DNA of 64,000 nucleotides from Enterobacteriaceae bacterium ESL0689. GTDB lineage: Bacteria > Pseudomonadota > Gammaproteobacteria > Enterobacterales > Enterobacteriaceae. The position numbers were made by a program, and so were the translations under genes. Of this stretch, positions 915-56,083 are shown one piece after another; within the stretch, counting starts at the first letter, position 1, and every line of letters begins with the position of its first letter. The stretch is taken from positions 992,001-1,056,000 of the forward strand of contig JAQTIF010000001.1 in NCBI GenBank assembly GCA_029433525.1, given 5' to 3'. The notes beneath the pieces are model-generated. The model did no database searches and was not told where the DNA came from. It worked only from the letters and a program-made list of their open reading frames with translations.

Positions 915-1056
915 AGCCTATCCCATTAGGCTATTTTACTTGCCATTTTGGCCCTGAGCAGTGCTCGAAATCCTCACGTACTCCGTGTACGCTGCGGTTT
1001 CTCCGCGCTGTTCGTGTCCAAACTGGCTGCGCCAATAACGCCTGGTGGGATAGGCT
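915..1056. repeat. Dispersed ~142-bp MITE-like repeat, copy 1 (best preserved)
   Basis: The ends are inverted repeats: AGCCTATCCCA at 915-925 against TGGGATAGGCT at 1046-1056, extending with mismatches to about 16 bp. The interior has GC-rich inverted segments and no ORF of its own. Degenerate relatives are seen near 26384-26520, 39243-39385 and 55901-55962, sharing core words such as CTTGCCATT, GGTTTCT and AACGCCTGGTGGG. It lies between yjfN and the IS256 element, where bsmA would be in E. coli. It is non-autonomous and intergenic; mechanism unknown. Confidence 0.7.
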
Positions 1057-10033: not shown

Positions 10034-10117
10034 AAAAACAGGCTCGGGCATCGGCAAATTATCTGCTGTTGAGCACCTGATAATGACAGGTAAATAAGCC
10101 TGGCTGGCCAGGCTCTT

Positions 10118-10189: not shown

Positions 10190-11345
10190 TAAATAACTTC
10201 TCATATTAACGCTCCACTTTCGCCAGCCCCGGGCAGTTACCGGGAAATGGGGAGGCAACTTTCATAAACTGCTTCACCTGTTTCAGTAGCTGCCACATGT
10301 ACCGGCACGAATGATTCCGTGTGACTGTTTCATGTAAGGACAGCCACAACCGTTCTACTGGATTCAGCCACGGTGAATATACCGGCAGGAACAACACCCT
10401 GAATTTTTTATTCCCGTCCAGCCAGTGCTCCACTTTCCGGCTTTTATGAATAACGTAGTTATCTGCTATCACCGTGATGGTCTTTGCCCGACGGTATGTG
10501 CGGCGGAGTGTTTCCAGCAAACGGATAAATAAATCAGAGTTCTTATTGCTGCCACTGACGTAATGAACTTTTCCTGTATCTGCATGCAGCGCCCCGGCCA
10601 GGTAATGCTTCTGATTCTGTCCCGGCGTGGCAACTCGTTTCTGTTGTCCTCTGAGCATCCAGTCAGCGCCGATTTTTGGGTTCAGGTCAATATCAACTTC
10701 ATCCTGATAAAACACCGGATTTTCTGCCTGATCCTGAGCCAGAGCCTGCTCTATAGCGGACTGTTTTTCATCATAATGCGGGTCTCTGATTTTCAGCGTG
10801 GGCGCTGCTCTTCTCCAGACTATTCCCGCCTGTTTCAGGTAGCGGTGCAGCGTTGAACGATGAAGCGTTATATTAAAAACCTAGTTGACGATACGGGCCA
10901 GCAATTCTGTACTCCACCGTGAACGTAACCAGCCATAATCTTTCGGGGTACGCTGAATCAGCAATGGCAGAACCCGTAAGATATCGGTAACAGGCCAGTG
11001 CTGCTCTCGTCCGGGTCTGAGGCTTCTGAGGCCTTCAGTACCCTATAACGTGAACCCGTTTATCCAGCGGCCCACAGATGAACGGGCGGCACAGAGCAGC
11101 CGGGCGACATCGGTAACAGTCATTCCCTGATGCAACATAAGCATAGCGATTATCCGCCGTGCATCGTTTTTATCGCGAGTCTGCTGTGCTTCTTTACGCA
11201 TAAAACGTCGTTCTTCAGGAGAAATAGCTGCTATGATCGGCATCGCTCAGTCCGGTTTGTGATTTGTGATGTCTGGCGATTGATCAGATCGCAAAATCCG
11301 GGCTGAGTTCCCTCAAAGTGATCTATTATTTTGCGAAGTTATTTA
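10190..11345 (-). mobile_element. IS630-family element, copy 1 (left edge of accessory island)
   Basis: The element runs between TA dinucleotides with inverted ends: TAAATAACTTC from 10190 and its complement GAAGTTATTTA up to 11345, the TA-targeted termini expected of IS630/Tc1 elements. The 5' flank of the transposase is nearly identical to that of copy 2 up to the same end (24000), which defines the boundary. The transposase is on the minus strand and carries two in-frame amber codons. Confidence 0.85.
10206..11243 (-). pseudogene. IS630-family transposase with two in-frame amber codons
   Basis: About 345 codons in one frame. The N-terminal HTH region has SPEERRFMRKEAQQT and TDVARLLCAARSSVGRWING; the middle has YLKQAGIVWRRAAPTLK; the DDE core has FYQDEVDIDLNPKIG, VIADNYVIHKSRKVE and YSPWLNPVERLWLSLHE. 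Reading is broken by TAG at 11043-11045 (after INGFTL, also present in copy 2) and TAG at 10881-10883 (Gln in copy 2). No frameshift is seen, so only the two nonsense codons block a full-length product. IS630 tnp ORFs are normally single-frame. Confidence 0.88.
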
Positions 11346-11594
11346 GGTAGAATCGTCCTCGTCCTGGTTCTTTTTTGCTTGGTCTGGGGATTCGTCGGCA
11401 GTCAACAATAATGGATTAAGTGATAAAAGGTGTCTGGAAATATAGGGGCCAGTTCAAATAATTTCCGTTGTTGATTAAGTCCGGACGGATTGAATGAATT
11501 AGATTAATTTTTTTTTTAACTTAGGTCTTTGAAGGCCAGAAAACAAGCTACACTAAATATGCTGCATGATGGCAGACTGGTACAAGGAGTTTTT
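11346..11594. other. non-coding left part of the island
   Basis: Between the IS630 end and the first lipoprotein gene. It is AT-rich with a run of ten T (about 11509-11518). A plausible but unproven promoter for the lipoprotein pair lies near TACACTAAATATG, about 11548-11560. No ORF or recognisable element. Confidence 0.4.
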
Positions 11595-11825
11595 ATGAAA
11601 AAAGTAACGCTGGCCGTTCTTTTAGCTTCATTTACTGTTTTCGCCATAACAGGCTGTTCTTCTAATCAGGCTATAAAGACTACTGATGGGCGTACTATCG
11701 TAACCAACGGAAAACCAAGTATTGATAACGATACAGGACTCGTTTCTTACAAGGATGCCCAGACAGGGAAAACCGAGCAGATAAATCGTGATCAGATTAC
11801 TAATATGAGTGAGCTGGATAATTAA
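11595..11825 (+). CDS. YgdI/YgdR-family (DUF903) lipoprotein
   Basis: A 76-residue precursor with a classic lipoprotein signal: basic MKKVT, a hydrophobic stretch, and lipobox AITGC (Cys about 20). The mature part has the DUF903 pattern TTDGRTIVTNGKPSIDNDTGLVSYKD followed by EQINRDQI. Such proteins are small outer-membrane lipoproteins of unknown function; E. coli has YgdI and YgdR. The ATG at 11595 was chosen because AAGGAG lies just upstream; the open frame begins earlier. A paralogue follows 13 bases later, so the two are probably cotranscribed. Their presence in an IS-bounded island suggests acquisition, but the ancestral locus is unknown. Confidence 0.85.
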   Translation: MKKVTLAVLLASFTVFAITGCSSNQAIKTTDGRTIVTNGKPSIDNDTGLVSYKDAQTGKTEQINRDQITNMSELDN

Positions 11826-11838
11826 ATAAGGATTAGTT

Positions 11839-12066
11839 ATGAATAAAAAATTTCTGTTTCCGTTAGCTGTGGTTATTGTATTATCAGCGATAACGGGTTG
11901 TACTCGTACCAGCTACGCGATACATACTAATGACGGGCGAACCATCGTCAGTGATGGTAAGCCAAAAGAGACAGAAACTGGTCTGCTGGGTTATAAGGAT
12001 GCTAATGGTGTGGAGCAACAAATTAATAAAACTGATGTAAAACAAGTTAATGAAATACCGCATTAA
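11839..12066 (+). CDS. YgdI/YgdR-family (DUF903) lipoprotein, second copy
   Basis: A 75-residue lipoprotein precursor, paralogous to the gene just upstream. Signal peptide MNKKFLFPLAVVIVLSAITGC ends in the lipobox; the mature part has HTNDGRTIVSDGKPKETETG, GYKDANGVEQQINKTDV and a short acidic tail. It resembles E. coli YgdI more closely than the first copy does. AAGGA lies ten bases before the ATG. Function unknown; predicted outer-membrane anchored, since residue +2 of the mature form is Thr, not Asp. Confidence 0.85.
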   Translation: MNKKFLFPLAVVIVLSAITGCTRTSYAIHTNDGRTIVSDGKPKETETGLLGYKDANGVEQQINKTDVKQVNEIPH

Positions 12067-12075
12067 CTGAAGTTT

Positions 12076-12109
12076 CTGCCCAGAACCTGTAATGACAGGC
12101 TCCGGGCAG
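12076..12109 (+). terminator. possible terminator of the lipoprotein pair
   Basis: CTGCCC (12076-12081) pairs with GGGCAG (12104-12109), and CCTG with CAGG inside, separated by 4-nt internal loops. It starts ten bases after the second lipoprotein stop. No U-tract follows, so this is tentative. Confidence 0.35.
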
Positions 12110-12405
12110 ATAACCATCTAAACGGGGAAAACTGCTCCAGAGATGATTTATTCAATAACGCAAATATGAACATTAAATCCTGCCGGGAGGAGCAAAGGGG
12201 ATGCAAACCGTAAAAATCAGATGAAGCATCACTTAACTCAATGAATATTGAAATAATAAAGGAGACAAGCAGTGGCTGAATGCGTTACCAGGCTGCAGCA
12301 CTCACTTTACCGTTTACCATATCCCACCATAAACCGGAAAATCAAGCCACAGGCTGGTGACAGGAAAAGGAAAAAACCAGTGATTATTTCATTTCCGTCA
12401 GTCAA
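12110..12405. other. gap without a confident gene
   Basis: Between the lipoprotein pair and the small membrane ORF. A GTG-started reading frame of 49 codons (12272-12421, plus strand) has a GGAG upstream but overlaps the next gene's 3' end and resembles nothing known. No repeat or RNA gene recognised. Confidence 0.4.
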
Positions 12406-12549
12406 CTATAAGGTGGTATAGTATATTAATATTGCCAGAATGACCATTCCAATAAAAGAGCTGGCAGCTGCGATAACCCCCATGACCTGCCAGACGTAGC
12501 CACTCACTGACAATATACTAATTGTAAGAAAAGTCCATAGATAGATCAT
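12406..12549 (-). CDS. candidate 47-aa hydrophobic membrane protein
   Basis: A short reading frame on the minus strand, too small for usual ORF cut-offs. The product begins MIYLWTFLTISILSVSGYVW and continues with GVIAAASSFIGMVILAILIYY before a short TTL end: two hydrophobic segments joined by a glycine/glutamine turn, so probably a two-helix inner-membrane protein. AAGGAGGAC lies directly upstream and gives ideal spacing to this ATG (12549); an adjacent ATG at 12552 is too close. I do not recognise the family with certainty. The strong ribosome site and clean membrane pattern make translation plausible, but no homologue could be checked. Confidence 0.5.
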   Translation of the reverse strand: MIYLWTFLTISILSVSGYVWQVMGVIAAASSFIGMVILAILIYYTTL

Positions 12550-12552
12550 CAT

Positions 12553-13167
12553 GTCCTCCTTCTGTTTACTCTAAGATTATGCCAGATTTCATATTGTTAA
12601 CCTATTTATTTTATTACAAAAATCACAGACTGAAAAGAAAATCAGTGATGAAAGAATACGTTTAAACACATGGAGCTGATTTTCCGCATGTAACTCAGAT
12701 ATCCGTAGGTTGTTGGTAATACAGTTGTTCATATGATGTGACGGCCTCTTGTTACCCGGTTTTATATTGATGTTTTCTCTTAAATATTCATTTTAAATCA
12801 TACTAATAGCTCTTATTAAAGGTTTCTTCCTATATCCCCTGGTTTTTTCTTCGCTTACGATTCAGTAGCTGGAAAATTTTTATGCAATAACAAGATTGCG
12901 ATAATTATCATGTTATCACCAGTTCATTTCCGTACATGTACTTTCAGGAAAAAGTGCCGTTTGCACTAACAACCTGATCCGAATGAGCAATATTTTCTCT
13001 TGTTCCCACGTGTCCTCGACAACCTGTCCAGGAGCATATTGTTTGTATTCCATTCTGTACAGGCCATATCTCAGAACAAATATACAATTACTGTAAGGTA
13101 TGACCACCTTTCGTGTGTACTGGTATTAACGAAGGCCTCTCTTTAGTAAATGGGTATTAAATATTGC
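12553..13167. other. AT-rich stretch without a supported gene
   Basis: Minus-strand frames of up to 63 codons exist (for example 12916-13107), but none has a convincing ribosome site or familiar motifs. The stretch lies just 3' of the Rob-like pseudogene and may contain more of its decayed surroundings. No terminators or repeats of note. Confidence 0.4.
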
Positions 13168-14027
13168 TTAACAACATGAATATTTTTTTCTAGTTTCGCT
13201 ACTGTTAAATGGCGAGATGATTATGATATCATTGTCTGGTCTCCTTATACATGAAGGGGAAGGTAATGTATTATAGTAAATAAATTTTATTTCGTTATGT
13301 AAGTTAGCCACTTTTTCCGACCAGGTAAAGGTCAGGTATTTTCCCGTTTTTAATGTTTTTTCCTGAAGTGAATGAGTTTTAATGTTGTTTTGGTCAATGT
13401 ATTCAGGAATCAAAAACTCACAACTGAGGCCAGGCCTTTCACCTGAATTAATATGAAAATAATTTTCAGAATATAAAGCCTGTTTGTTTTTAAAGGGGTT
13501 TTAGCAATAAGCCGTCTCAGGGTAGATAATGCTACCTCCTCCATAATAAATTGATTGTCAGGATGCTCTGTATTGATAAAATGGGTGTATTTTTTACATA
13601 GACACAACGTGATGGTATTTCCGTGATCAAATATTTTAATAGTACTGGAACAGATAGATTAATTGGTGGAGTTATTATTGTAAAATCCCATTTTTTTCTG
13701 AACGCCCGGCCCCAGGGGTAACCCGAAATGAGATTTAAAACTTCTGTTTAAACTCGTTTGTGAATCAAAACCGTAGCGCATTGTAATATTAAAGACAGGC
13801 TGCTTTGTGAGTTTGAGCGCTATTGCAGTGTTGCTAATACACCGTTGTTTGATGTATCCTCCCAACTTAAGTCCAGTTACATTGCGAAAAAGACGTTGCA
13901 GATGCCGCTAACTATAGCCCGATTTTTCTGCTACATCTTTTATTTTAATGGGATGCTGCTCAAGGCTATCCTCGATCCAAGGTAGAAGAGTAGAAATAAA
14001 TTTATCCAGTTGATTCTCTTTAGACAA
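13168..14027 (-). pseudogene. AraC/Rob-like regulator with GyrI-like effector domain, broken
   Basis: The 5' part encodes a MarA/SoxS/Rob-type double HTH: FISTLLPWIEDSLEQHPIKI, DVAEKSGYS, then HLQRLFRNVTGLKLGGYIKQ and MRYGFDSQTSLNRSFKSHFG with the typical PLGP end. An amber TAG at 13908-13910 interrupts it where relatives have a residue before the RHLQRLF helix. A TAA at 13659 and frame changes separate it from a second part whose LKTGKYLTFTWSEKVANLHN and IKFIYYNTLPSPS resemble GyrI/Rob effector-binding domains. The start at 14027 (TTG) is a guess; no ribosome site is seen. An AT-rich, probably foreign gene now inactive. Confidence 0.65.
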
Positions 14028-14124
14028 TCGCAGAAGAGAAAGTTATATTATCTTTTGATTACAAAACACAATTTTCTACGGCATGAAAAATCTTGAGCAT
14101 TTACCTGAAATCAAATAATTTGCC

Positions 14125-14168
14125 TGCCATATGATAAAATCAAGGGTTTTTAGATTGAACATATGGCA
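14125..14168. repeat. 9-bp perfect inverted repeat
   Basis: TGCCATATG (14125-14133) and CATATGGCA (14160-14168) are exact inverted copies 26 bp apart. It lies in the gap between the regulator pseudogene and the EexN-like remnant. It could be a protein site or a hairpin; nothing decides between them. Confidence 0.35.
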
Positions 14169-14213
14169 TTTTCCCTAAAGAGTGTATGAGACTAATAAAT
14201 CTGATCAATGAAT

Positions 14214-14466
14214 TCAGAATTCCAGAGATTTCATATCGAGATAGCCGGGTTGCAACAAGCGCAATTGTATGTCTGTCTTCGAGACATTGAGGCAATTCGG
14301 TGTCCCGCTCATTTCAGCCGGATTGGTTGTACATTGCACAATCATCTGTGTTCTCGTCGGCATGTCTCCTGTAGCAGTCGACAGTACAGTCTGGATGGGG
14401 GTTCTTCCGTGCATGCGATCTGGTGGTGATCATGATCAGGGCAGCGATTCGAACATTGTGTTTCAT
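14214..14466 (-). pseudogene. EexN-like entry-exclusion lipoprotein remnant, frameshifted
   Basis: From the ATG at 14466 (AAAGGAG nine bases upstream) the frame reads MKHNVRIAALIMITT, then CTVDCYRRHADE, and soon stops; a one-base shift joins it to QMIVQCTTNPAEMSGTPNCL with a short C-terminus ending KSLEF. The pattern VDxYxxHxxE...C..NP.E...TPNC is that of EexN-family lipoproteins, which block entry of related conjugative plasmids and usually accompany trb genes. The lipobox is degenerate, and a Trp expected in VDWY is Cys. I see no trb or tra genes nearby, so this is a relic of a conjugative element. Family assignment rests on motif memory. Confidence 0.5.
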
Positions 14467-14486
14467 GTACGACATCTCCTTTGAAA

Positions 14487-15161
14487 TCAATCGCGGTCTG
14501 CTGGTTGCTTCAGCCCCGTAGTGCGAGGCAAATCAACATCGACGACAGCATTCAGCCCACCCAGCGCAAAACGCTTAAAATGTTCTGCCAGGCGTTCTTT
14601 TTCCATAGCATAAATTGTACTGACGGGTCCCGGTACTCTTCCTGCTGAAACGATGAGCATCAGGCAGGGAGCCACCACATTCAGTGTGCAGAGCAACAGT
14701 CGCGGATCATTTTCGGATAGACCTGACACTTCACTCATAATCTGTCTGATTGAGGCGATTTTTTTCGACCCTTCAAATTCAACAAACGCATTCAGTTCGA
14801 CAGAAGGTGAAAACAGCTCCCGAAAAAAGACCTGGCTGTACCATCCCGCCATGCCTTTCAGTTTCATGACCAGCATATCGATGAAAGCGCTGAACTTGTC
14901 GACAGGTGCCTGCTGACTTTCCGCAAGTGCCTGTAGTTCAGCACCATCAACAAAATGCCGGTGTGCTTCAGAAAGCACGGAGAGATAAAGCCCCTCCCGT
15001 CCGCCAAAATGATAATTAATGGCAGCCATATCAACCCCTGCTGCTTGTGCAATGGCCTTATTGCTGGTTCCGGCATAGCCGTTCCGGGCAATCAGTTCGC
15101 CAGCAGTCCCGAGAATTTTCTGACGTGTTGCTTCCCCGTCTTTGCGGCGTGGTCTGTTCAT
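14487..15161 (-). CDS. TetR-family repressor (CecR/YbiH-like)
   Basis: A 224-residue TetR regulator. The N-terminal HTH is clear: GEATRQKILGTAGELIARNG, then SNKAIAQAAGVDMAAINYHF and GGREGLYLSVL. The rest is the all-helical ligand and dimer domain, as in CecR (YbiH), which controls ybhGFSR in E. coli. The start at 15161 was chosen for the GGAGG just upstream and the MNRPRRKDGE beginning. It is divergent from the efflux genes; a perfect 7-bp-armed palindrome in the shared gap is a likely operator. Inferred to repress the exporter and respond to its substrate; the ligand is unknown. Confidence 0.88.
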   Translation of the reverse strand: MNRPRRKDGEATRQKILGTAGELIARNGYAGTSNKAIAQAAGVDMAAINYHFGGREGLYLSVLSEAHRHFVDGAELQALAESQQAPVDKFSAFIDMLVMKLKGMAGWYSQVFFRELFSPSVELNAFVEFEGSKKIASIRQIMSEVSGLSENDPRLLLCTLNVVAPCLMLIVSAGRVPGPVSTIYAMEKERLAEHFKRFALGGLNAVVDVDLPRTTGLKQPADRD

Positions 15162-15221
15162 TGTGCCTCCGTAAAAAATTATCCCTGAAGGATACACTTT
15201 TCTTCTTCTTTAGATTAAGTT

Positions 15222-15240
15222 TAAATTAAATTGTAATTTA
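15222..15240. promoter_or_regulatory. candidate TetR-family operator
   Basis: TAAATTA (15222-15228) and TAATTTA (15234-15240) are perfect inverted arms around AATTG. The site is centred between the divergent repressor and the membrane-fusion protein gene, where TetR regulators usually bind. No binding data; inference from symmetry and position. Confidence 0.45.
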
Positions 15241-15288
15241 CATTTTGACTGAATGATACTGTTGATGACCTTTAAGGGATATGTTGCG

Positions 15289-16320
15289 ATGAAAAAATCA
15301 TTAATCGCCGCCGTAGTGATTATCGTTTTAGTGGGGGGGGCGGCAACATTCTGGCTGAGCAGGAGTTCATCAGGGAATGTCGGTGAAGTGACGCTGCACG
15401 GGAATGTGGATATCCGCCAGGTGTCACTGGCTTTTGAAGAGTCCGGCAGGATCAGGAAACTGGATGTCCAGGAAGGGGATCGGGTGCATGCCGGTCAGAT
15501 TCTCGGTAACCTTGATATAGAATCGCTGGAGATTCAGGCGCGGCAAGCAGCGGCAAAACTGGCTGCCCAGGAGCAGACCGTTCAGGAACAACAGGCCGGC
15601 TCCCGTCCGGAAGAAATTGCCCAGGCGCGGGCACAGCTGGCATCCGCCCGGGCGCAACTGGCAAAGGCGGAGCAGGATTTAAAACGACTGCAGAATATTG
15701 CAGCCAGTACCGGGGGAAAAGGTGTCAGCAAACAGGAGACTGACGCAGCCAGAAGCAACCAGCGGGTGGCGGCGTCAAATGCCAGGGAAAGGCAGGCTAA
15801 TCTTGATTTGCTGCTGAAAGGGGTGCGCAGTGAACAGCGCCAGGCCGCTGTTGCACAGACTGACGCGCTACGGGCGGATCTGGATTTACTGCACTACCGT
15901 ATTTCCCAGGGCACGCTGAAAGCGCCTGTGGATGCCGTTGTGCGGGCCCGTTTGCTGGAGCCTGGCGATATGGCCGGTCCGCAGAAACCTGCCTTCACGC
16001 TGGCCCTGGATGATCCAAAGTGGGTCAGGGTCTGGCTGAGTGAAAGCGATCTGGGGCGGGTCAGAACCGGGATGACAGCACAGGTCTTCAGCGACACCTG
16101 GCCGGACAGGCCTGTCACTGGTCAGATCGGCTATATCTCTTCCGTGGCGGAGTTCACACCAAAATCAGTACAGACCGAAGATCTGCGCACTAAGCTGGTC
16201 TATGAGGTACGGGTACTGGTGAATGACCCGAAAAACACCCTGCGGATGGGCCAGCCCGCCACCGTCAAAATTGCGACGGACACGACGCAGAATGAGACCA
16301 GCCGTCATGCAGGGCTATGA
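15289..16320 (+). CDS. HlyD/YbhG-like membrane-fusion protein of ABC exporter
   Basis: A 343-residue periplasmic adaptor that links the inner-membrane ABC transporter to the outer-membrane channel. An N-terminal anchor (LIAAVVIIVLVGGAATFWL) is followed by a biotinyl-lipoyl half-motif (GNVDIRQVSLAFEESGRI, VQEGDRVHAGQILG), a long coiled coil rich in Ala, Gln and Arg (about residues 85-190), and the second lipoyl half with LKAPVDAVVRARLLEPGDM. The start at 15289 has AAGGGA upstream. It overlaps the ATPase gene by 14 bases. E. coli YbhG is the closest family member I recognise. The GC content is visibly higher than in the flanking chromosome. Confidence 0.88.
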   Translation: MKKSLIAAVVIIVLVGGAATFWLSRSSSGNVGEVTLHGNVDIRQVSLAFEESGRIRKLDVQEGDRVHAGQILGNLDIESLEIQARQAAAKLAAQEQTVQEQQAGSRPEEIAQARAQLASARAQLAKAEQDLKRLQNIAASTGGKGVSKQETDAARSNQRVAASNARERQANLDLLLKGVRSEQRQAAVAQTDALRADLDLLHYRISQGTLKAPVDAVVRARLLEPGDMAGPQKPAFTLALDDPKWVRVWLSESDLGRVRTGMTAQVFSDTWPDRPVTGQIGYISSVAEFTPKSVQTEDLRTKLVYEVRVLVNDPKNTLRMGQPATVKIATDTTQNETSRHAGL

Positions 16321-18085
16321 GGATGCGGTGGTTGCCGGCGAGCTGTTGATGACCTTTGCCGGCAGCAGTAAAAAAGTACCGTCTGTCAGGGCGGTGGACG
16401 GTCTGAATCTGCGCATCCGTGCCGGTGAGCTGACAGCACTGGTGGGACCTGATGGCGCCGGGAAAACCACGTTTTTGCGGCTAATCGCGGGGCTGTATGT
16501 GCCCACATCGGGCACGCTGACCGTACTGGGGACGGATGTCATTGCTCATCCGCAGGCCGTTCAGAACCGGATCAGCTATATGCCGCAGCGGTTTGGCCTG
16601 TATGAGGATCTGAGCATTCAGGAAAATCTCGAACTGTATGCCGATTTGCACGGTGTGCCACAGGAGACGCGTCGGGAGCGTTTTGCCCGCCTGCTGGCAA
16701 TAACCGATCTGGCCCGTTTTTCCTCCCGCCCCGCCGGGAAATTGTCCGGCGGGATGAAACAAAAGCTGGGGCTGGCCTGCACGCTGGTGCGTTCCCCGGA
16801 TCTGCTGCTGCTTGATGAGCCCAGCGTCGGTGTGGATCCGCTTTCCCGCCGGGATTTATGGCAAATTATCGACCAGCTGGTGAAGGAGGAGGCGCTCAGC
16901 GTCATCATCAGTACCGCCTATATGGATGAGGCGGAACGCTGTTCTCAGGTCAATATCATGTATCAGGGAAAAATTCTGGCGCAGGGGGCTCCGGCCGAAC
17001 TGACTGAAAAGGCGCGCAATCTGACCTGGGAAGTCGCTCCGCCGCCGGGTATGAAGGCGCGAACCTTGCAGGCTGCGCTGCTGGAAAAAACGGAGCGGGT
17101 TGCCGATGCAGTACCGAAAGGCGATACGGTGCGTTTTATCTGTCGTCCCGACGTCACGCCGATCGACGCCGGCGATCTACCGGACGGTACCCGGATGCAG
17201 GCCCGCGAGCCGGATCTGGAAGATGCTTTTATGTTAACCCTGCACCAGGCGCAGCAGCGCGACCATTCCGCTGCTGCCGGGATGGTCAGGACGGATATGG
17301 TTTCAGCTCAGCGGCATGATACGGTGACGGGCGATCCCGTGATAGTGGTACGCGACCTGGTGAGGCAGTTTGGCGATTTTACGGCCGTCGCCAGTACCTC
17401 ATTTGACGTCAGGCGTGGTGAGATCTTCGGCCTGCTCGGACCTAATGGGGCGGGTAAAACCACCACCTTTCGCATGCTGTGTGGATTGCTTCCTGCGACC
17501 AGCGGCCAGCTTGAGGTGGCTGGTCTTAATCTCAGAACGGCCAGGGCACAGGCGCGGACGCGTATTGGTTACGTTTCGCAGAAATTCGCCCTCTACGGTA
17601 ACCTCACGGTGGAGGACAATCTGACCTTTTTTGGTGGGGCGTATGGGTTATACGGAAAGAAACTCAGAACGCAGATCCGGACGGTGATTGACCAGTTTGA
17701 GCTGACGGCGGGAGCAAAAAGCGACGAGCTTCCCGGTGGATTTAAACAGCGTCTGGCGATGGCGGCGGCGCTGTTACATGAGCCGGAGATTGTGTTTCTG
17801 GATGAACCCACCAGTGGTATTGATCCGCTGGCGAGACGCGCCTTCTGGTACACCATCGGCGAGCTGGCCAACAAGGGTATCACCATTATCATCACCACGC
17901 ATTTTATGGAAGAAGCGGAATACTGTGACCGGATAGCCATTCAGGATGCGGGAAAGATGCTGGCGCTTGGCACGCCTCGTGATGTGCGCGCGCAGGCCGG
18001 GACGGAATACGCTGCTGATATGAACAGTGCGTTTATCGCCATCGTTGAGCAGGCCCGGGCGGCAGGCACCAGGGGGCAGTCATGA
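16307..18085 (+). CDS. YbhF-like ABC exporter ATPase with two nucleotide-binding domains
   Basis: A 592-residue tandem ATPase that powers the export permeases. Domain 1: Walker A GPDGAGKTTF, signature LSGGMKQKLGLA, Walker B LLLLDEPSVGVDP. Domain 2: Walker A GPNGAGKTTTF, a variant signature ELPGGFKQRLAMA, Walker B IVFLDEPTSGIDP and switch His in TTHFMEEAEYCDR. The first switch region has STAYMDEAER, so its His is replaced, as in E. coli YbhF; site 1 may be partly degenerate. The ATG at 16307 was preferred; an in-frame ATG at 16292 is also possible. Both overlap the adaptor gene. Its 3' end overlaps the next gene by four bases. Confidence 0.9.
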   Translation: MQGYEDAVVAGELLMTFAGSSKKVPSVRAVDGLNLRIRAGELTALVGPDGAGKTTFLRLIAGLYVPTSGTLTVLGTDVIAHPQAVQNRISYMPQRFGLYEDLSIQENLELYADLHGVPQETRRERFARLLAITDLARFSSRPAGKLSGGMKQKLGLACTLVRSPDLLLLDEPSVGVDPLSRRDLWQIIDQLVKEEALSVIISTAYMDEAERCSQVNIMYQGKILAQGAPAELTEKARNLTWEVAPPPGMKARTLQAALLEKTERVADAVPKGDTVRFICRPDVTPIDAGDLPDGTRMQAREPDLEDAFMLTLHQAQQRDHSAAAGMVRTDMVSAQRHDTVTGDPVIVVRDLVRQFGDFTAVASTSFDVRRGEIFGLLGPNGAGKTTTFRMLCGLLPATSGQLEVAGLNLRTARAQARTRIGYVSQKFALYGNLTVEDNLTFFGGAYGLYGKKLRTQIRTVIDQFELTAGAKSDELPGGFKQRLAMAAALLHEPEIVFLDEPTSGIDPLARRAFWYTIGELANKGITIIITTHFMEEAEYCDRIAIQDAGKMLALGTPRDVRAQAGTEYAADMNSAFIAIVEQARAAGTRGQS

Positions 18086-19215
18086 GCCAGTCCTCTTTTG
18101 TGGTGCGCCTTGTCTCGCTGATCCGCAAGGAAACCCGTCAGCTGCTGCGGGACAGGAGTAATCTTGGCGTGGGGCTGTTGCTTCCGGTGGTGTTGATCCT
18201 GCTCTTTGGTTACGGGCTGTCATTTGATCTGTCAAACACCCGTGTCGCCGTGGTGATGGAGCAGCATTCGCCGCAGGCTGATGATGTGCTGTCCGGGCTG
18301 GCGGGCAGCCGGTATCTTACGCCGACGCGATATCCTGACATGGCGTCGGCCCGACAGGCCCTGCGCCGTGATGAGGCTGATGCCATCGTGCGTATTCCGC
18401 CGGATTATGCTCAGCAGGTTAATCAGGGGACGGCGAAAATACAGCTGATCCTCAACGGTGCCTCCACGAGCGTGGCCTCTTCCACACAGGGCTATGTTTC
18501 AGGGGCGCTGGCTTCGGATGCCGCGATCCAGGCGGACAGAGCGGCCAGCGACACGAGCGGTACCGGGAGCGTCACTATTGAACAGCGTATGTGGTTTAAC
18601 GAATCGGGGAACAGCACCTGGTTTCTGGTTCCGGGGCTGATTGTTCTGATCCTGACGCTTATCGGGGCGTTTCTGACCGGGTTGCTGATTGCCCGTGAAA
18701 AAGAGCGCGGTACGCTGGAGGCAATTTTCGTGACGCCCGTCCGGCCGCTGGAGCTGGTGCTGGCAAAGCTGGCGCCATATATGATCCTCGGGTTTATCGA
18801 TTTGCTGATCTGCCTGCTGGCCGCCCGATTTTTGTTTGAAGTGCCTATGCGCGGTTCGTTGCTGGCCATTATCGGCGCCTCGTTGCTCTACCTGCTGGTT
18901 TCGCTGGCGATGGGGCTGATGATTTCAGGCATGGCGCAGAGCCAGTTCCAGGCCAGCCAGATGGCGCTGCTCGCCAGTTTCATGCCGGCGATGATGTTGT
19001 CCGGTTTTGTATTCGATACCCGCAACCTTCCGCTGGCGATACAGGTTATCAGTCAGGTGCTGCCGGCAACGCATTTTATGTCGCTGATCAAAACGCTTTT
19101 CCTCGGTGGCAATGACTGGCCGCAATATTTTCGCGAATGTTCCATCATGTTGCTGTACGCGCTGGTGCTGGTGAATGCCGCGCGCCTGTCGTTACGCAAG
19201 AGGCTGAAGGTGTAG
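18082..19215 (+). CDS. YbhS-like ABC-2 exporter permease
   Basis: A 377-residue inner-membrane half-permease of the ABC-2 type, the same length as E. coli YbhS. A cytoplasmic RKETRQLLRDRSN precedes helix 1 (LLLPVVLILLFGYGLSF), a large periplasmic domain follows (about residues 45-175), then five helices in the C-terminal half, including FLVPGLIVLILTLIGAFLTG and the coupling segment AREKERGTLEAIFVTPV typical of the family. Its ATG overlaps the ATPase stop by four bases. It works with the next gene as a heterodimer, by analogy with YbhS/YbhR. Confidence 0.9.
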   Translation: MSQSSFVVRLVSLIRKETRQLLRDRSNLGVGLLLPVVLILLFGYGLSFDLSNTRVAVVMEQHSPQADDVLSGLAGSRYLTPTRYPDMASARQALRRDEADAIVRIPPDYAQQVNQGTAKIQLILNGASTSVASSTQGYVSGALASDAAIQADRAASDTSGTGSVTIEQRMWFNESGNSTWFLVPGLIVLILTLIGAFLTGLLIAREKERGTLEAIFVTPVRPLELVLAKLAPYMILGFIDLLICLLAARFLFEVPMRGSLLAIIGASLLYLLVSLAMGLMISGMAQSQFQASQMALLASFMPAMMLSGFVFDTRNLPLAIQVISQVLPATHFMSLIKTLFLGGNDWPQYFRECSIMLLYALVLVNAARLSLRKRLKV

Positions 19216-19217
19216 TT

Positions 19218-20333
19218 ATGGAAACATGTATTATCTGGCTCCGGCGTGTAGGGTTTCTTATCCGTAAAGAGGTGCTGACTATCCTCAAGGAGCCGGCCAA
19301 CCGGGTGATTTTATTTGCGCCGGCGTTTCTTCAGGCACTGTTGTTTGGCTATGCGGCTAATTATGATGTCAACAACGTTGATTACGCCGTGCTCGATCAG
19401 AGCAGAAGTCAGCCATCCACGCTGCTGATTTCTCATCTGGACGGCACCGGTGTCTTCCACCGGACTGCCACCCTGACCTCCGCGTCTGAAATTGCCGACA
19501 CCATAACCAGCGGCAGGGCGTTGCTGGTTATCACTTTTCCGCCGGATTTTGCGGTGAAACTGAACGGGGGGGAGGCATCCCCGCTGCAGGTGATCCTTGA
19601 TGGCCGGAACTCTTCTACGGCCGGCGCTGCCGCGAGCTATGTGAGCGCAGTGGTGTCTGATTTTAACCAGCAGAATCGCGGTACTTCAGCCGCCGTCTCC
19701 CTGGAAACCCGGGCCTGGTATAACCCGAATCTGGAGTCCCGCTGGAGTATGATGCCGACGCTGATTGCCTCGCTGAGCATGATGCAGACGCTGCTGCTGG
19801 CTTCTTTGTCGGTGGCACGGGAGCGGGAGCAGGGCACCTTCGATCAACTGCTGGTCACCCCTTATACCCCGATGCAGATCCTGATCGGTAAGGCTCTGCC
19901 CTCCATCGTGGTCGGGCTGGTGCAGTCCACCATTATTCTGCTGATTATTCTGTTCTGGTTCCGTATCCCGATGAACGGTTCGCTGTGGCTGTTGTACCTG
20001 GGGTTGTTGGGTTTCAATATTGCGGCGGTTGGCCTGGGACTGTCGTTGTCGGCGGTGTCCGTTAATATGCAGCAGGCCATGCTGTATACCTTCCTGCTGA
20101 TCATGCCGCTGATGTTGCTTTCCGGACTACTCACACCGGTCCAGACGATGCCGGATTTTCTGAATACGCTGACCTATGCCAACCCACTGCGTTTCGCCAT
20201 TGACCTGGTGCGCCGGGTTTATCTGGAAGGCGCCGTATTCTCCGATATCGCGTTTGATTTTATTCCACTATTGATTATGGCGGCCATTACGCTACCGCTG
20301 GCGGCCTGGCTTTTCCGCAACCGTCTTTACTGA
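19218..20333 (+). CDS. YbhR-like ABC-2 exporter permease
   Basis: Second half-permease, 371 residues. It has the same layout as its partner: RKEVLTILKEPANRVIL, helix 1 with a short periplasmic entry, a large periplasmic loop, then helices beginning with MMPTLIASLSMMQTLLLASL and the family loop REREQGTFDQLLVTPYTPMQ. The start at 19218 was chosen because it lies two bases after the YbhS-like stop with AAGG upstream; the open frame extends further back inside that gene. It is followed 15 bases later by the outer-membrane component. Confidence 0.9.
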   Translation: METCIIWLRRVGFLIRKEVLTILKEPANRVILFAPAFLQALLFGYAANYDVNNVDYAVLDQSRSQPSTLLISHLDGTGVFHRTATLTSASEIADTITSGRALLVITFPPDFAVKLNGGEASPLQVILDGRNSSTAGAAASYVSAVVSDFNQQNRGTSAAVSLETRAWYNPNLESRWSMMPTLIASLSMMQTLLLASLSVAREREQGTFDQLLVTPYTPMQILIGKALPSIVVGLVQSTIILLIILFWFRIPMNGSLWLLYLGLLGFNIAAVGLGLSLSAVSVNMQQAMLYTFLLIMPLMLLSGLLTPVQTMPDFLNTLTYANPLRFAIDLVRRVYLEGAVFSDIAFDFIPLLIMAAITLPLAAWLFRNRLY

Positions 20334-20348
20334 CAGCAGGTTTCTGAT

Positions 20349-21851
20349 ATGACATCTTGTTTTACCTCTGCTTCGCACCCCTCTTTGCTTGCTATGCCAG
20401 CACTGGCGCTTATGCTGGCGCTGAGCGGTTGTACTGTTGGCCCGGATTATCAAAAACCACAGGTTGACCATCCTTCGGACTGGTCGGCATGGCGCAGTGG
20501 CGATGCGTCGCTGCATCAGTTGCCGGGAAGCGATGCACAGATCAATATCCGCTGGTGGGAAAGTTACCACGACCCCATTCTTAATCAACTGGTCACGAAG
20601 GCGCTGAGCGCCAGCCCGGATTTGAAAACCGCAGCGCTGAATTTTGCCGCCGCCCGCGCGCAGGGCTCTCAGACTTCGGCGGCGCAGTTGCCGGAAGTCA
20701 CCCTTTCGGGAAAAGTCAGCCGGGAAAAGATCGGTGAGAAGGGGAGCAGCACACGGCTTATCAGTGAAGTCTATTCGGGTACGAATGCAGACTCGTTGCT
20801 TGACATGTTCGGGCAGCCGTACTCCTGGTATCAGGCAGGCGTGGATTTTTCCTGGGAAATTGATTTATGGGGTCATGTTCGCCGGGCCGTGGAAGCCGCC
20901 GGTGCCGACACCGAAGCGCAGAAAGCCCTGCTGGCGCAGGCGCAACTGAGCATCATCAGCGATGTGGTGACGAACTATTACACACTGCGGGATATTCAGC
21001 AGCAAATTGCGCTGGCAAAGGAAGATGAGCGGTCGATGGATGAGCGGCTGGCCTTAATCAGGGCGCAGACACAGGGGGGCTCGCTGGATTACAGCGCGCT
21101 GGAGCGTCAGCAGGCCGAACTGGCTGCCACCCGGGCAAAACAGGTTGATCTGCGTCGGCAGGAGGGACAGACCATCAACCAGATCCTGCTGCTGCTGGGT
21201 GAACGACCAGGGGAACTTCAGAAAGAACTGGGCCCGCAATATAACAGCGCCGGTCAGACCGCACTGCCGGCACTGAACGCCGGGCTGCCCTCGCAGGTGG
21301 CAATCAACCGTCCGGATATCCGTTCTGCCGAAGCAAAACTTCATGCCGCCACCGCGCGGATTGGTGTAGCTAAAGCGGAATTGTATCCCAGCATCACGCT
21401 GGGCGGGCGCTTTGGCTATGACACCTGGAAGGGGAGTGATTTTGGTCAATGGGGTACCCGAACCTGGTCCATTGGCCCCAGCCTCGACCTGCCGTTGTTC
21501 GATTATGGCAAACGGAAATCGGTGGTGGTGTTGCGTGAGGTGGAACAGCAGCAGGCGGCCGTGGACTTTCATAAAACCGTGCTGAAAGCGTGGCAGGAAA
21601 TCGATGATGCCCTGAACCGGTATACTGCGGCGCAGCAAAAACTGCATCAGCAGCAACAGCAGGTAAAAAGCGCTGAAGAAGCGCTGTCCATCACCGATGC
21701 CCGTTATAAAGGCGGAATGACGGATTTTATCAACGTTCTGGACAGCCAGCGCAGCGCAATCCAGGCGCGAACGGCTCTGGTGGACAGCGAAAGTGAGGTG
21801 AGAAAAGCATTTGCGGCTGTGAACAGGGCGATCGGAAATTATCCCCGATAG
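20349..21851 (+). CDS. NodT/OprM-family outer-membrane efflux lipoprotein
   Basis: A 500-residue TolC-like trimeric channel subunit. A lipoprotein signal ends in LALSGC with the family start TVGPDYQKP right after the Cys. The mature part has two similar OEP halves: IRWWESYHDPILNQLV and later ARAQGSQTSAAQLPEVTL, then, in the second half, RPDIRSAEAKLHAATARIGV with AELYPSITLGGRFGY, and long amphipathic helices rich in Gln and Ala. It completes the exporter from cytoplasm to outside. E. coli ybhGFSR lacks an adjacent gene of this type, so the cluster is a variant with its own exit duct. It is the last gene of the operon. Confidence 0.9.
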   Translation: MTSCFTSASHPSLLAMPALALMLALSGCTVGPDYQKPQVDHPSDWSAWRSGDASLHQLPGSDAQINIRWWESYHDPILNQLVTKALSASPDLKTAALNFAAARAQGSQTSAAQLPEVTLSGKVSREKIGEKGSSTRLISEVYSGTNADSLLDMFGQPYSWYQAGVDFSWEIDLWGHVRRAVEAAGADTEAQKALLAQAQLSIISDVVTNYYTLRDIQQQIALAKEDERSMDERLALIRAQTQGGSLDYSALERQQAELAATRAKQVDLRRQEGQTINQILLLLGERPGELQKELGPQYNSAGQTALPALNAGLPSQVAINRPDIRSAEAKLHAATARIGVAKAELYPSITLGGRFGYDTWKGSDFGQWGTRTWSIGPSLDLPLFDYGKRKSVVVLREVEQQQAAVDFHKTVLKAWQEIDDALNRYTAAQQKLHQQQQQVKSAEEALSITDARYKGGMTDFINVLDSQRSAIQARTALVDSESEVRKAFAAVNRAIGNYPR

Positions 21852-22177
21852 TTTCCGGCTGAATCACTGAACGTGTATTCCGGCGAAAAATATCACGATT
21901 TTGCACCATGACCATAATTACTGTTCATTTTGTCAGAATCGGCATTCATCCGGCCGGAAGGGCGTTTATCTCGCCAGAATTATTCTTAATGCATTGATTT
22001 TTAATCCATATCTCTCCCCCATCATTCTGGAGAGAGGGGTATGCCTGGTAAGAGAATCGCAATACGTAAAATCCAGAATCCGTGGAATTTTAAGGCTGGG
22101 TTTTGACGTCGGGCTCACTGAGCCTTAACTATTGTTGTCTGAAGTTAACATCTGAGACAATACACATGATAAACAAA
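21852..22177. other. gap at end of efflux operon with possible IS21 istA remnant
   Basis: No intact gene. Around 22040-22128 two plus-strand frames together resemble the start of an IS21-family IstA transposase: MPGKRIAIRKIQ in one frame and IRGILRLGFDVGLTEP in another. Short inverted words (CTCTC...GAGAG near 22014-22035, GGCTCACTGAGCC near 22112) are present. The IS256 fragment begins at 22178. The IS21 assignment is tentative. Confidence 0.35.
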
Positions 22178-23074
22178 GGATATCGGGCGGATAACCGAAG
22201 AACGTATTGAGATTTTCCCAGTGCGCACGCCAGCTCTTACTGATTTGTGGGTATTTCTCATCCCATTCGCTGGCAAACTTATCCAGTGCCATCAGTGCCG
22301 CTTCCTCTGTGGCGGCCTGATACACCGCTTTCAGGCCACCGGTAACGGCTTTGTAGTCCTTCCACGATACGTATTTCAGACTGTTGCGTACCATGTGAAT
22401 GATGCACAACTGGACATGGGTCTGCGGGTAAACACTGTTGATGGCATCCGGAAAGCCCTTCAGGCCGTCCACACAGGCAATCAGGACCCCGGTTTTTCAG
22501 CTCTGTCAGGACACTGAGCCAGAATTTTGCCCCTTCGTTTTCGGCCAGCCACATACCCGGCAGTTCCTTATGACCTGAGGTATTAATACCCAGCGCGAGG
22601 AACACGGCTTTGTTAATCACGCTGCCATTATGACGGACTTTTATGAAAATACAGTCAAGGTAAACAATGGGATACAGGGCATCCAGCGGGCGGTTTTGCC
22701 ATTCGATAACCTGTTCTTTCACCGCATCAGTGACTTTAGATATCAGAGTGGGTGACACATCCGCATCATACATTTCCTTAAATGTATCAACGATTTCACG
22801 TATGGTCATGCCTCTGGCATACAGGGACAAAATCTGGCTGTCCATCTGTGTGATACGGGTCTGGTTCTTCTTAATAAGCTGAGGTTCAAAGGTATTTTCG
22901 CGGTCACGTGGCGTACTGATTTCAATCTGGCCATCGTCGCAAAGCAGGGTTTTAGACGAGTAGCCATTGCGGGTATTTGTGCCTGATTTTCTGGTGTTTT
23001 TATCATACCCGAGGTGCTCAGTTAACTCCGCATTACATTGAGCGCTGTTTCGACGGTCAGCTTCGTTAGCATCC
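22178..23074 (-). mobile_element. IS256-family fragment, copy 2 (both ends lost)
   Basis: Same element as 1084-2359 but on the minus strand and cut at both ends: similarity stops at GGATATCGGG (22178) on one side and at a junction with IS630 sequence at 23072-23074 on the other. It keeps Trp where copy 1 has the amber codon, shares copy 1's 5-bp duplication, and has lost 11 bp around 22489, shifting the frame after LTELKNRG. It lacks its terminal repeats and cannot move by itself. Confidence 0.85.
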
Positions 23075-23898
23075 AGCCAGTGCTCCACTTTCCGGCTTTT
23101 ATGAATAACGTAGTTATCTGCTATCACCGTGATGGTCTTTGCCCGACGGTATGTGCGGCGGAGTGTTTCCAGCAAACGGATAAATAAATCAGAGTTCTTA
23201 TTGCTGCCACTGACGTAATGAACTTTTCCTGTATCTGCATGCAGCGCCCCGGCCAGGTAATGCTTCTGATTCTGTCCCGGCGTGGCAACTTGTTTCTGTT
23301 GTCCTCTGAGCATCCAGTCAGCGCCGATTTTTGGGTTCAGGTCAATATCAACTTCATCCTGATAAAACACCGGATTTTCTGCCTGATCCTGAGCCAGAGC
23401 CTGCTCTATAGCGGACTGTTTTTCATCATAATGCGGGTCTCTGATTTTCAGCGTGGGCGCTGCTCTTCTCCAGACTATTCCCGCCTGTTTCAGGTAGCGG
23501 TGCAGCGTTGAACGATGAAGCGTTATATTAAAAACCTGGTTGACGATACGGGCCAGCAATTCTGTACTCCACCGTGAACGTAACCAGCCATAATCTTTCG
23601 GGGTACGCTGAATCAGCAATGGCAGAACCCGTAAGATATCGGTAACAGGCCAGTGCTGCTCTCGTCCGGGTCTGAGGCTTCTGAGGCCTTCAGTACCCTA
23701 TAACGTGAACCCGTTTATCCAGCGGCCCACAGATGAACGGGCGGCACAGAGCAGTCGGGCGACATCGGTAACAGTCATTCCCTGATGCAACATAAGCATA
23801 GCGATTAGCCGCCGTGCATCGTTTTTATCGCGAGTCTGCTGTGCTTCTTTACGCATAAAACGTCGTTCTTCAGGAGAAATAGCTGCTATGATCGGCAT
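22178..23898 (-). pseudogene. IS630-IS256 chimeric transposase ORF
   Basis: Reading from 23898, the IS630 HTH region (SPEERRFMRKEAQQT) meets the same TAG (23698-23700) as in copy 1. After it the frame stays open through the IS630 core to KSRKVEHWLD, then crosses a TCC microhomology junction (23072-23074) into IS256 sequence, AELTEHLGYDKNTRK, without a stop. The fused open frame (23619 to 22279) is 446 codons, but it switches into a wrong IS256 frame at the 11-bp deletion. It has only a TTG as possible start and lacks the final third of both catalytic domains, so no active transposase is expected. Confidence 0.8.
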
Positions 23899-24000
23899 CG
23901 CTCAGTCCGGTTTGTGATTTGTGATGTCTGGCGATTGATCAGATCGCAAAATCCGGGCTGAGTTCCCTCAAAGTGATCTATTATTTTGCGAAGTTATTTA
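23072..24000 (-). mobile_element. IS630-family fragment, copy 2 (right edge of accessory island)
   Basis: Nearly identical to the transposase 5' two thirds of copy 1, including the terminal GAAGTTATTTA that ends at a TA at 24000. The other end is lost at the IS256 junction. It lies in the same orientation as copy 1, so the two are direct repeats around about 12 kb of cargo, and the rpsF leader begins just beyond 24000. Confidence 0.87.
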
Positions 24001-24084
24001 GTGAGCAGAAAAATTATTTATATCATCTGCTTGTCTTCTCCAGATGACGAAAGTAAAATGGCGCGTCAATTTTTCGGCCGTCCT

Positions 24085-26351: not shown

Positions 26352-26383
26352 ATCGTTATTTTCGCTCCCTGGAGTATCAGAGT

Positions 26384-26520
26384 AGTCTGGCCCATCAGGG
26401 CTAATTTGCTTGCCATTCTGGCCCAGGGCCGTGGCAAAAATCTTACCTGCTGGCGGTACGCTGCGGTTTCTCACGCTGTCCGTATCCGGACTGGCAGAGC
26501 CTGGTATGCCAGGTGCTAAA
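26384..26520. repeat. Dispersed ~140-bp repeat, copy 2 (degenerate)
   Basis: Shares with copy 1 the order CTTGCCATT-CTGGCCC, then GGTACGCTGCGGTTTCTC, CGCTGTCCGT and CTGGCAGAGCCTGGTATG. Its ends are imperfect inverted repeats (GTCTGGCCCATCAGG at the left, CCTGGTATGCCAGG at the right). It sits between the divergent genes ytfB and fklB, just upstream of the ytfB start. Confidence 0.55.
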
Positions 26521-27313: not shown

Positions 27314-27684
27314 TTGCGTCGCGCTTCCCCCCTTGTTGGGGAAAGCGCTTCAACGGCTGTGACTGACGGCAGTAAATCGATTCACAACCATTTAGATTGC
27401 CTATATGCTGACGACGGAATCAGTGAGCCTGATTTTTATTTCCGTCGATCAGTTCAGGGAATGAATCCGGCAATCTGAATGGTGTACGCAGCCATCGTGT
27501 ATTGTCGAGGGATACAAAATAATCCTGATGGACCAGGTTCTTAATGAAACTATAAAAATTTTTGTTGTAGCAAAATCATCGTATTCATCTTTTCGATTCT
27601 TATCTGATATCGGGCAATATTTTGCGGAATGATGCCGAATGATGAGCCATCAGAACCTGAACAACACAGACAGGAAAAAATGAC
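27314..27684. other. fklB-cycA gap with cycA leader
   Basis: No gene. A stem GCGCTTCCCC/GGGGAAAGCGC just after fklB (about 27320-27346) could terminate fklB. Near the cycA start the leader has AACAACACAGACAGG, a CA-rich region of the kind bound by GcvB small RNA, which represses cycA in E. coli; the extension to this organism is inference. Confidence 0.4.
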
Positions 27685-39214: not shown

Positions 39215-39581
39215 GATGAACTCCTTTTTATAGATATGCAGGGCCTGAGAGGTGATCTCATTAGCGCTATTTTGCTTGTCATTTTGGCCTTGGGCAATAT
39301 CAGAAATCCTTACCGGTTTTGTGTCTGTTGCGATTTCCTGATGTCATCTGTCACCAAACTGACTGAGCAGCGATTCAGTTAAGCAAAAATAGTCCTCTGC
39401 GGTTTGTTATTTTTTGCCCCAGATCGGAATATTTTGAATCTGTCTGCCACGAGCTGGCGGGATTTGACTGACAATATCACCCGGTATCATGTTTTGTGAC
39501 TCAGGCGGTGAGATAGGGTATTATCGGCGCTAGTTTTGCCGTCCGTCTGGACGATATGCCGAGATTGAGGATTGACAATTA
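39215..39581. repeat. ygiN-parC gap containing repeat copy 3
   Basis: From about 39243 to 39385: TCATTAGCGCTATTTTGCTTG, TCATTTTGGCCTTGGGCA, AGAAATCCTTACC and TCACCAAACTGACTGAGC follow the order of copy 1 in degraded form. The remaining bases up to parC hold its promoter region. In E. coli several genes lie between ygiN and parC; none remain. Confidence 0.5.
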
Positions 39582-55816: not shown

Positions 55817-56083
55817 AATAATATGTCAACCTGGTATAAAAAAGAGTAATAGTCTGAACTATCCGCGCTATTGTCCTGACGGATAAGACGAAAAATCAGT
55901 ATGTTATGCTGTTCGTATACGGCGTGGCCGTGTGAATAACGTCTGGTGGGCTAAGCTCTAAATTAAATAATAAACCCGTATTGTCTACTTTTATTGTTCG
56001 TCCAGCAACCCTGGACACGATACTTTCCATCGTGATCTTTTGCCTCTGGTGTGGCGCGGACAGATTGTTCGCATCAACAAAAG
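55817..56083. other. gap upstream of rpsB with repeat copy 4 fragment; map absent
   Basis: No gene. At about 55901-55962 the 3' half of the dispersed repeat is recognisable: TGCTGTTCGT, GTGGCCG, AATAACGTCTGGTGGG and CTAAGCTCTA line up with copy 1's end. In E. coli map is divergent from rpsB at this place; no trace of it is seen. Confidence 0.5.

Follow-up and report, generated by a model that had tools for sequence, protein, structure and literature searches.

A 144-bp hairpin element and its relatives in the window

The window (the whole 64,000-nucleotide stretch of DNA that was analysed) belongs to an enterobacterial genome of 3.18 Mb, small for its family. Within it, yjfN is present at 513-785 and is directly followed by a complete copy of a short repeat, copy 1. 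An IS256-family transposase gene adjoins this copy at 1157-2316 and looks broken, because its ORF at 1633-2316 spans just model positions 121-336 of 338. The features of copy 1 are as follows.

911-913, no strand: target-site duplication, left, TTA
914-1057, + strand: copy 1, complete 144-bp element in the leading-strand sense; 167.8 bits (covariance model, window search)
915-925, + strand: left terminal inverted repeat AGCCTATCCCA; the G at 914 is the first base of the element
1046-1056, + strand: right terminal inverted repeat TGGGATAGGCT; base 1057 is T here and C in most copies
1058-1060, no strand: target-site duplication, right, TTA

The initial annotation had placed the repeat at 915-1056 with exact 11-bp inverted ends. 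Those ends, AGCCTATCCCA and TGGGATAGGCT, are present, but the limits were one base short on each side and have been moved to 914-1057. The termini read GAGCCTATCCCATTAGGC on one side and GCCTGGTGGGATAGGCTT on the opposite side, with TTA abutting both. As RNA, positions 912-1062 fold into a single long hairpin of -74.3 kcal/mol (z = -10.2), and none of 200 shuffled sequences was equally stable. An Rfam scan of the window showed no family above its gathering score that covers the element.

Three further places in the window had been proposed as degraded relatives. Scoring with a covariance model, for which 23 copies of the same genome served as input, had the following outcome.

26383-26516, + strand: copy 2, an older copy in the conserved ytfB-fklB gap; 62.2 bits, E 4.9e-12 (window search)
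39272-39369, + strand: copy 3, the core of an old copy in the ygiN-parC gap, model positions 23-120; 39.5 bits, E 5.9e-7
55847-55849, no strand: TAA left of copy 4
55850-55958, + strand: copy 4, a remnant with an internal deletion, upstream of rpsB, right end retained
55959-55961, no strand: TAA right of copy 4

At the E values given, copies 2 and 3 count as significant relatives. Copy 4 is absent from the window search with the covariance model (E limit 10) and reaches just 6.9 bits when a 500-base stretch is searched with filters off. Its right end, 55935-55958, agrees with the family end at 21 of 24 bases; in a control, 20 block-shuffled windows combined gave two matches with six or fewer mismatches. 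TAA on either side of it delimits a 109-bp remnant at 55850-55958, so that it stands as a degraded relative by its right end and flanks, but at this place and not at 55901-55962 as first given. All four copies lie on the + strand, which is the leading sense in the window. Palindromes of about 20 bp that comprise hardly more than the two ends were also seen, in the window at 10096-10115 and about 27517-27540, and elsewhere at L046:4151-4170, L053:281-300 and in the flank of L016. Some of them adjoin TAA or TTA, and perhaps they are copies without the middle.

Copy number and target-site duplication in the genome

The repeat had been described as dispersed, and the genome-wide search with the covariance model bears this out with at least 102 distinct places. 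This number is a lower bound: the best 150 of 1390 first-look candidates were scored with both strands listed, and copies 2, 3 and 4 of the window fall outside the set. BLAST of copy 1 against the same genome gave at least 44 rows with 40 of 197 candidates scored. A 17-mer pattern resembling the end, with one mismatch allowed, occurs 180 times in the genome versus 0 for the pattern read backwards.

Ends resembling GAGCCTATCCCA bound 29 of 30 copies on both sides at a length of about 144 bp, the exception being L016, and 28 of the 30 closest copies have an identical triplet on the two sides. A 3-bp duplication is found at 67 of the 102 places (38 TTA, 28 TAA and 1 TAT) and in 39 of the 43 best-preserved copies (at least 150 bits), copy 1 among these. 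When left and right flanks from different copies are paired at random, 32% are identical. One long stretch between element ends, C1:958944-960704 (L045:245-2005), contains two ORFs that by translation resemble an IS3-type transposase. We rejected it as an autonomous parent and take it for a copy into which another IS has inserted.

An IS5-family element with matching ends

A partner for the element was sought among the IS5-type transposases of its own genome, where 13 places carry a DUF4096 domain. Two of these, of a second type, bear ends like those of the element. The complete IS copy is 869 bp long (L073:1418-2286), begins with GAACCTATCCCA, ends with TGGGATAGGCTC (which is GAGCCTATCCCA reversed) and is flanked by TTA on both sides; the other copy matches it over 803 of 869 bases and is without the right end. 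Both ORFs of the IS score above the curated cut-off of NF033580 (IS5-family transposase), and PF13340 and PF01609 are present. Relatives of the IS are flanked by TAA/TAA in E. coli, TTA/TTA on a Klebsiella plasmid and TAA/TAA on a Proteus plasmid, which together with our own copy makes four of four. Their ends are the same as those of our IS, except that the Proteus relative, annotated as ISPrst3, differs by one base at the right. The E. coli relative is annotated with a programmed frameshift, and the ISPrst3-like IS has 20 places in E. coli F11 and 14 in TUM17543. The other IS5-type element, at the 11 remaining loci, has no pair of element-like ends around its transposase, and the sole end pair near these loci (L062) is an adjacent copy of the repeat.

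The element and the ISPrst3-like IS share the outer 12 bp, with one mismatch at the left, as well as the TTA/TAA target that is duplicated. They differ in that the IS has 869 bp and a two-ORF transposase whereas the element has no transposase; no likeness to the IS was seen in the inner part of the element, and the common end is 12 bp. Because the same genome harbours an IS with almost identical ends and an identical target, we regard the repeat as a MITE with a likely autonomous partner. The suggestion that it might be a MITE had been made at the outset, and is borne out by the inverted ends, the 3-bp target duplication, a size too small for a transposase gene, the more than 100 copies and the IS with matching ends. 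From these sequence comparisons, the IS5-family transposase is the likely mover. It would recognise the element ends (GAGCCTATCCCA and its complement) and insert the element in trans at TTA/TAA sites, and the 102 or more copies would have arisen in this way. This provides a dispersed enterobacterial repeat with a probable source of transposase and with a target duplication that is exactly defined.

Orientation with respect to replication

Replication was laid out with dif at C1:2169430, dnaA at C1:546194 and oriC read at about C1:526300 from a GATC-rich cluster and DnaA boxes. Contig C2 was placed on the other replichore by replichore balance, so that its placement is inferred. Of the 102 copies, 84 are in the leading sense (P 2e-11), or 83 if dnaA is used as the origin. 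C1 alone has 68 of 79 leading copies; C2 alone has 16 of 23, which is non-significant (P 0.09). For the other IS5-type element, used as a control, 6 of 11 copies are leading.

Flanking genes show no such preference. Around the 99 copies with both neighbours called, as ORFs by length alone, the four gene arrangements number 30, 25, 25 and 19, and the leading copies within them 22, 21, 22 and 16, respectively. Flanking ORFs of at least 450 bases divide into 70 leading and 67 lagging. Where a copy has lagging-sense neighbours only, it is itself still leading in 26 of 31 cases. The orientation of the element is unrelated to its flanking genes. A strong strand bias without gene bias lets a replication cause be told apart from a transcription cause, a distinction difficult to draw where genes too follow the leading strand. 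The target motif was considered as a source of the bias and does not explain it, since of 66 copies 35 carry TTA on the leading sense and 31 on the lagging sense.

The same tendency is seen in other genomes. Fourteen relatives were searched with the model, and ten with three or fewer contigs were placed by dif and dnaA; in one of these, G028, the dnaA pieces fall below the cut-off. Among the copies listed for the ten, 42 of 48 are leading. This list is short of weak copies. Leaving out the G014 copy at 4605172, which is too near the origin, makes the count among listed copies 41 of 47; from there it becomes 33 of 39 without eight rows beside dnaA, or 41 of 49 with the two placed K-12 copies added. 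Both of these K-12 copies are in the lagging sense.

Overall, we give a probability of about 0.85 to the reading of this 144-bp non-coding hairpin as a MITE that is moved by the IS5-family transposase of the same genome and whose orientation follows the replication fork. In the mechanism with the best support, the IS5-type transposase would mobilise the element in trans, and contact with the fork would determine its orientation as it inserts. Transposition would then be coupled to the fork, for example through the lagging-strand template or the beta clamp. It counts against this mechanism that the two ends, although almost the same in sequence, would have to be distinguishable during insertion. 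PMC5371812, which cites Gomez et al. 2014 on IS orientation, reviews fork-related orientation bias for Tn7, for IS200/IS605 and for a number of IS families that contact the beta clamp. The pneumococcal BOX, RUP and SPRITE repeats are likewise mobile short repeats counted by replication strand; in PMC3049150 they are 61-63% leading, which is said to mirror coding bias, whereas the element is 82% leading with evenly distributed flanking genes. No description of such a leading-strand bias for this repeat family was found in the literature searched, which lacked the primary RSA papers. More than 100 natural insertions constitute a test set for fork coupling of non-autonomous transposition, and because the partner IS has close relatives in E. 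coli the question is testable in a laboratory strain.

Conservation of the hairpin and alternative explanations

The core hairpin was compared in 45 diverse copies from this genome and other genera. Twelve of its 21 consensus pairs are changed on both sides. Compensatory cells number 48 versus 9.6 in shuffles, a total that none of 500 shuffles reached. Of all cells, 93.5% are paired, versus 87.3% in shuffles and at most 49% when the alignment is slid. Compensatory changes across genera show that the hairpin is maintained.

These changes, together with the hairpin that 8 of 12 genomes examined carry between dnaN and recF, bring up an explanation other than orientation at insertion. The element could have inserted in both directions, with selection afterwards removing lagging-sense copies because the polar hairpin has a useful or a harmful effect on replication, repair or segregation. 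The bias on C1 also looks stronger in worn copies (below 150 bits, 42 of 46 leading) than in fresh ones (at least 150 bits, 26 of 33). However, this difference is non-significant (P 0.19), and fresh copies are already biased. Moreover, the DNA energies of the two strands in 43 fresh copies are almost equal, differing by about 1 kcal/mol of 34, too little for one direction to be clearly unstable; orientation-dependent hairpin instability was rejected as a cause on the same grounds. We consider selection after insertion a possible but rather doubtful account.

Less probable still is that the element acts as an RNA hairpin on the transcripts that contain it, by terminating, processing or stabilising them, a role that has been reported for ERIC and YPAL. 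The very stable fold and its compensated core pairs would fit such a role, and in 42 of 43 fresh copies RNA from the + strand forms a better fold than RNA from the - strand. Among the 21 pairs of the + strand structure there are 176 G-U versus 28 A-C cells, but this excess is due largely to a few positions at which G-U is the commonest pair, and the 11 pairs shared by the two strands' folds have 7 G-U versus 18 A-C. The wobble evidence for one transcribed strand is therefore mixed, and the lack of any relation between orientation and flanking genes at the 99 copies speaks against an RNA role. Insertion by the IS5-family transposase with orientation following the fork remains our preferred reading.

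Gene order around the copies

Gene neighbourhoods were checked by tblastn of K-12 proteins on the window. The initial annotation had held that three of the four copies lie where gene order differs from E. coli, and had suggested that the repeat marks or helped cause rearrangement. The first point is correct for copies 1, 3 and 4, while copy 2 sits in the conserved ytfB-fklB pair. In line with the proposal, bsmA is not found in the window, and the same is true of all nine genes that K-12 has between ygiN and parC. As for map, it is parted from rpsB but is not lost, with a match above the family cut-off at C1:1332864.

Three of the four window copies lie in broken junctions, compared with 7 of 26 K-12 junctions that are broken (P = 0.047 by our own junction tally). 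The intact K-12 junctions in the window are mostly tight operon joints where insertion is unlikely, and broken junctions double as long gaps that tolerate insertion. Lost genes, and gaps in their place, are to be expected in a genome so small for its family. Recombination between two elements would leave flanking triplets that match with an expected frequency of 0.51. Identical triplets at 39 of the 43 best-scoring copies, and at copies 1 and 4, point to simple insertion. A recombination-prone repeat that caused deletions around itself is accordingly very improbable: copies 1, 3 and 4 do lie in gaps unlike K-12, but the duplications are intact, copy 2 is in a conserved pair, map was moved rather than lost, and the broken junctions are also the long gaps. 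The idea that the repeat marks or made rearrangements is thus not supported. Elsewhere in the window, about 14 kb (10206-24066) separate ulaF from rpsF, where K-12 has yjfY alone.

Known repeat families and distribution in relatives

The name that probably applies to the repeat is RSA (= BEE95). RSA occurs 6 times in K-12, with a length of about 152 bp. On this presumed identity, the element shares with RSA of E. coli and Salmonella the character of an enterobacterial intergenic hairpin family, and differs in copy number, at least 102 here versus a median of 5 places in each E. coli genome. An entry in the reference list of PMC3751351 equates BEE95 with RSA. The Sal-1 stem-loop family of S. 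typhimurium has 115 positions, 27 members and a predicted fold (PMC2267715); its length equals that of the conserved core of the element, a likeness of length alone. ERIC/IRU/RU-1 is likewise described as a hairpin of enterobacteria that resembles a MITE, is close to the element in size and has inverted ends. However, a table of PMC2229807 lists it with 5'-TA-3' termini and a 7-bp TIR, whereas the element has a 3-bp TTA/TAA duplication and an end in common with an IS5-family element. YPAL/RU-2 and RU-3 are small repeats of the same bacterial group, but identity with them was rejected, as the element has no significant similarity to the printed sequences (best E 0.63).

Matches were obtained in 18 of 60 relatives (one per genus) and in 5375 of 5426 E. 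coli genomes, with 6 places each in BW25113, CJ236, C600 and MC4100. In K-12 MG1655, two copies were placed, in the pheM-pheS and pyrH-frr gaps, and the best K-12 copy is 143 bp plus flanks. An Rfam scan of the pheM-pheS copy matches the Phe leader (RF01859) only beside the element, and the other matches listed are below gathering. The core kept in relatives covers model positions of about 15-130. In a 5.4-Mb relative, G022, the model gave at least 55 rows with both strands counted, the most among the 14 relatives searched, which is perhaps a second expansion.

At the ygiN-parC site, 80 parC loci of other genomes had no BLAST match (E 1e-3) upstream of parC, where gene content differs too; the two matches obtained at these loci are both downstream. 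The covariance model, run on 45 of the 80, also gave no match. Among the listed loci, our own ParC is nearest to those of Raoultella, Klebsiella and Superficieibacter (89-90%).

The dnaN-recF gap carries the hairpin in 8 of 12 genomes, each of another genus (L263-L266 and L271-L274) and one with a tandem pair; the 12 were picked partly for known matches beside dnaA. In two genomes without the hairpin, dnaN and recF overlap by 1 base. An alignment of nine gaps, including that of G014 without the element, has 18 of 39 pairs compensated as a raw count. The hairpin here is likely one old insertion, although several insertions of variants may instead account for it. More broadly, and with some hesitation, we suggest that hairpins of this kind in Enterobacteriaceae might be locked to the fork independently of transcription, through lagging-strand-template coupling or a signal role, and that some, such as that between dnaN and recF, could have become conserved host features.
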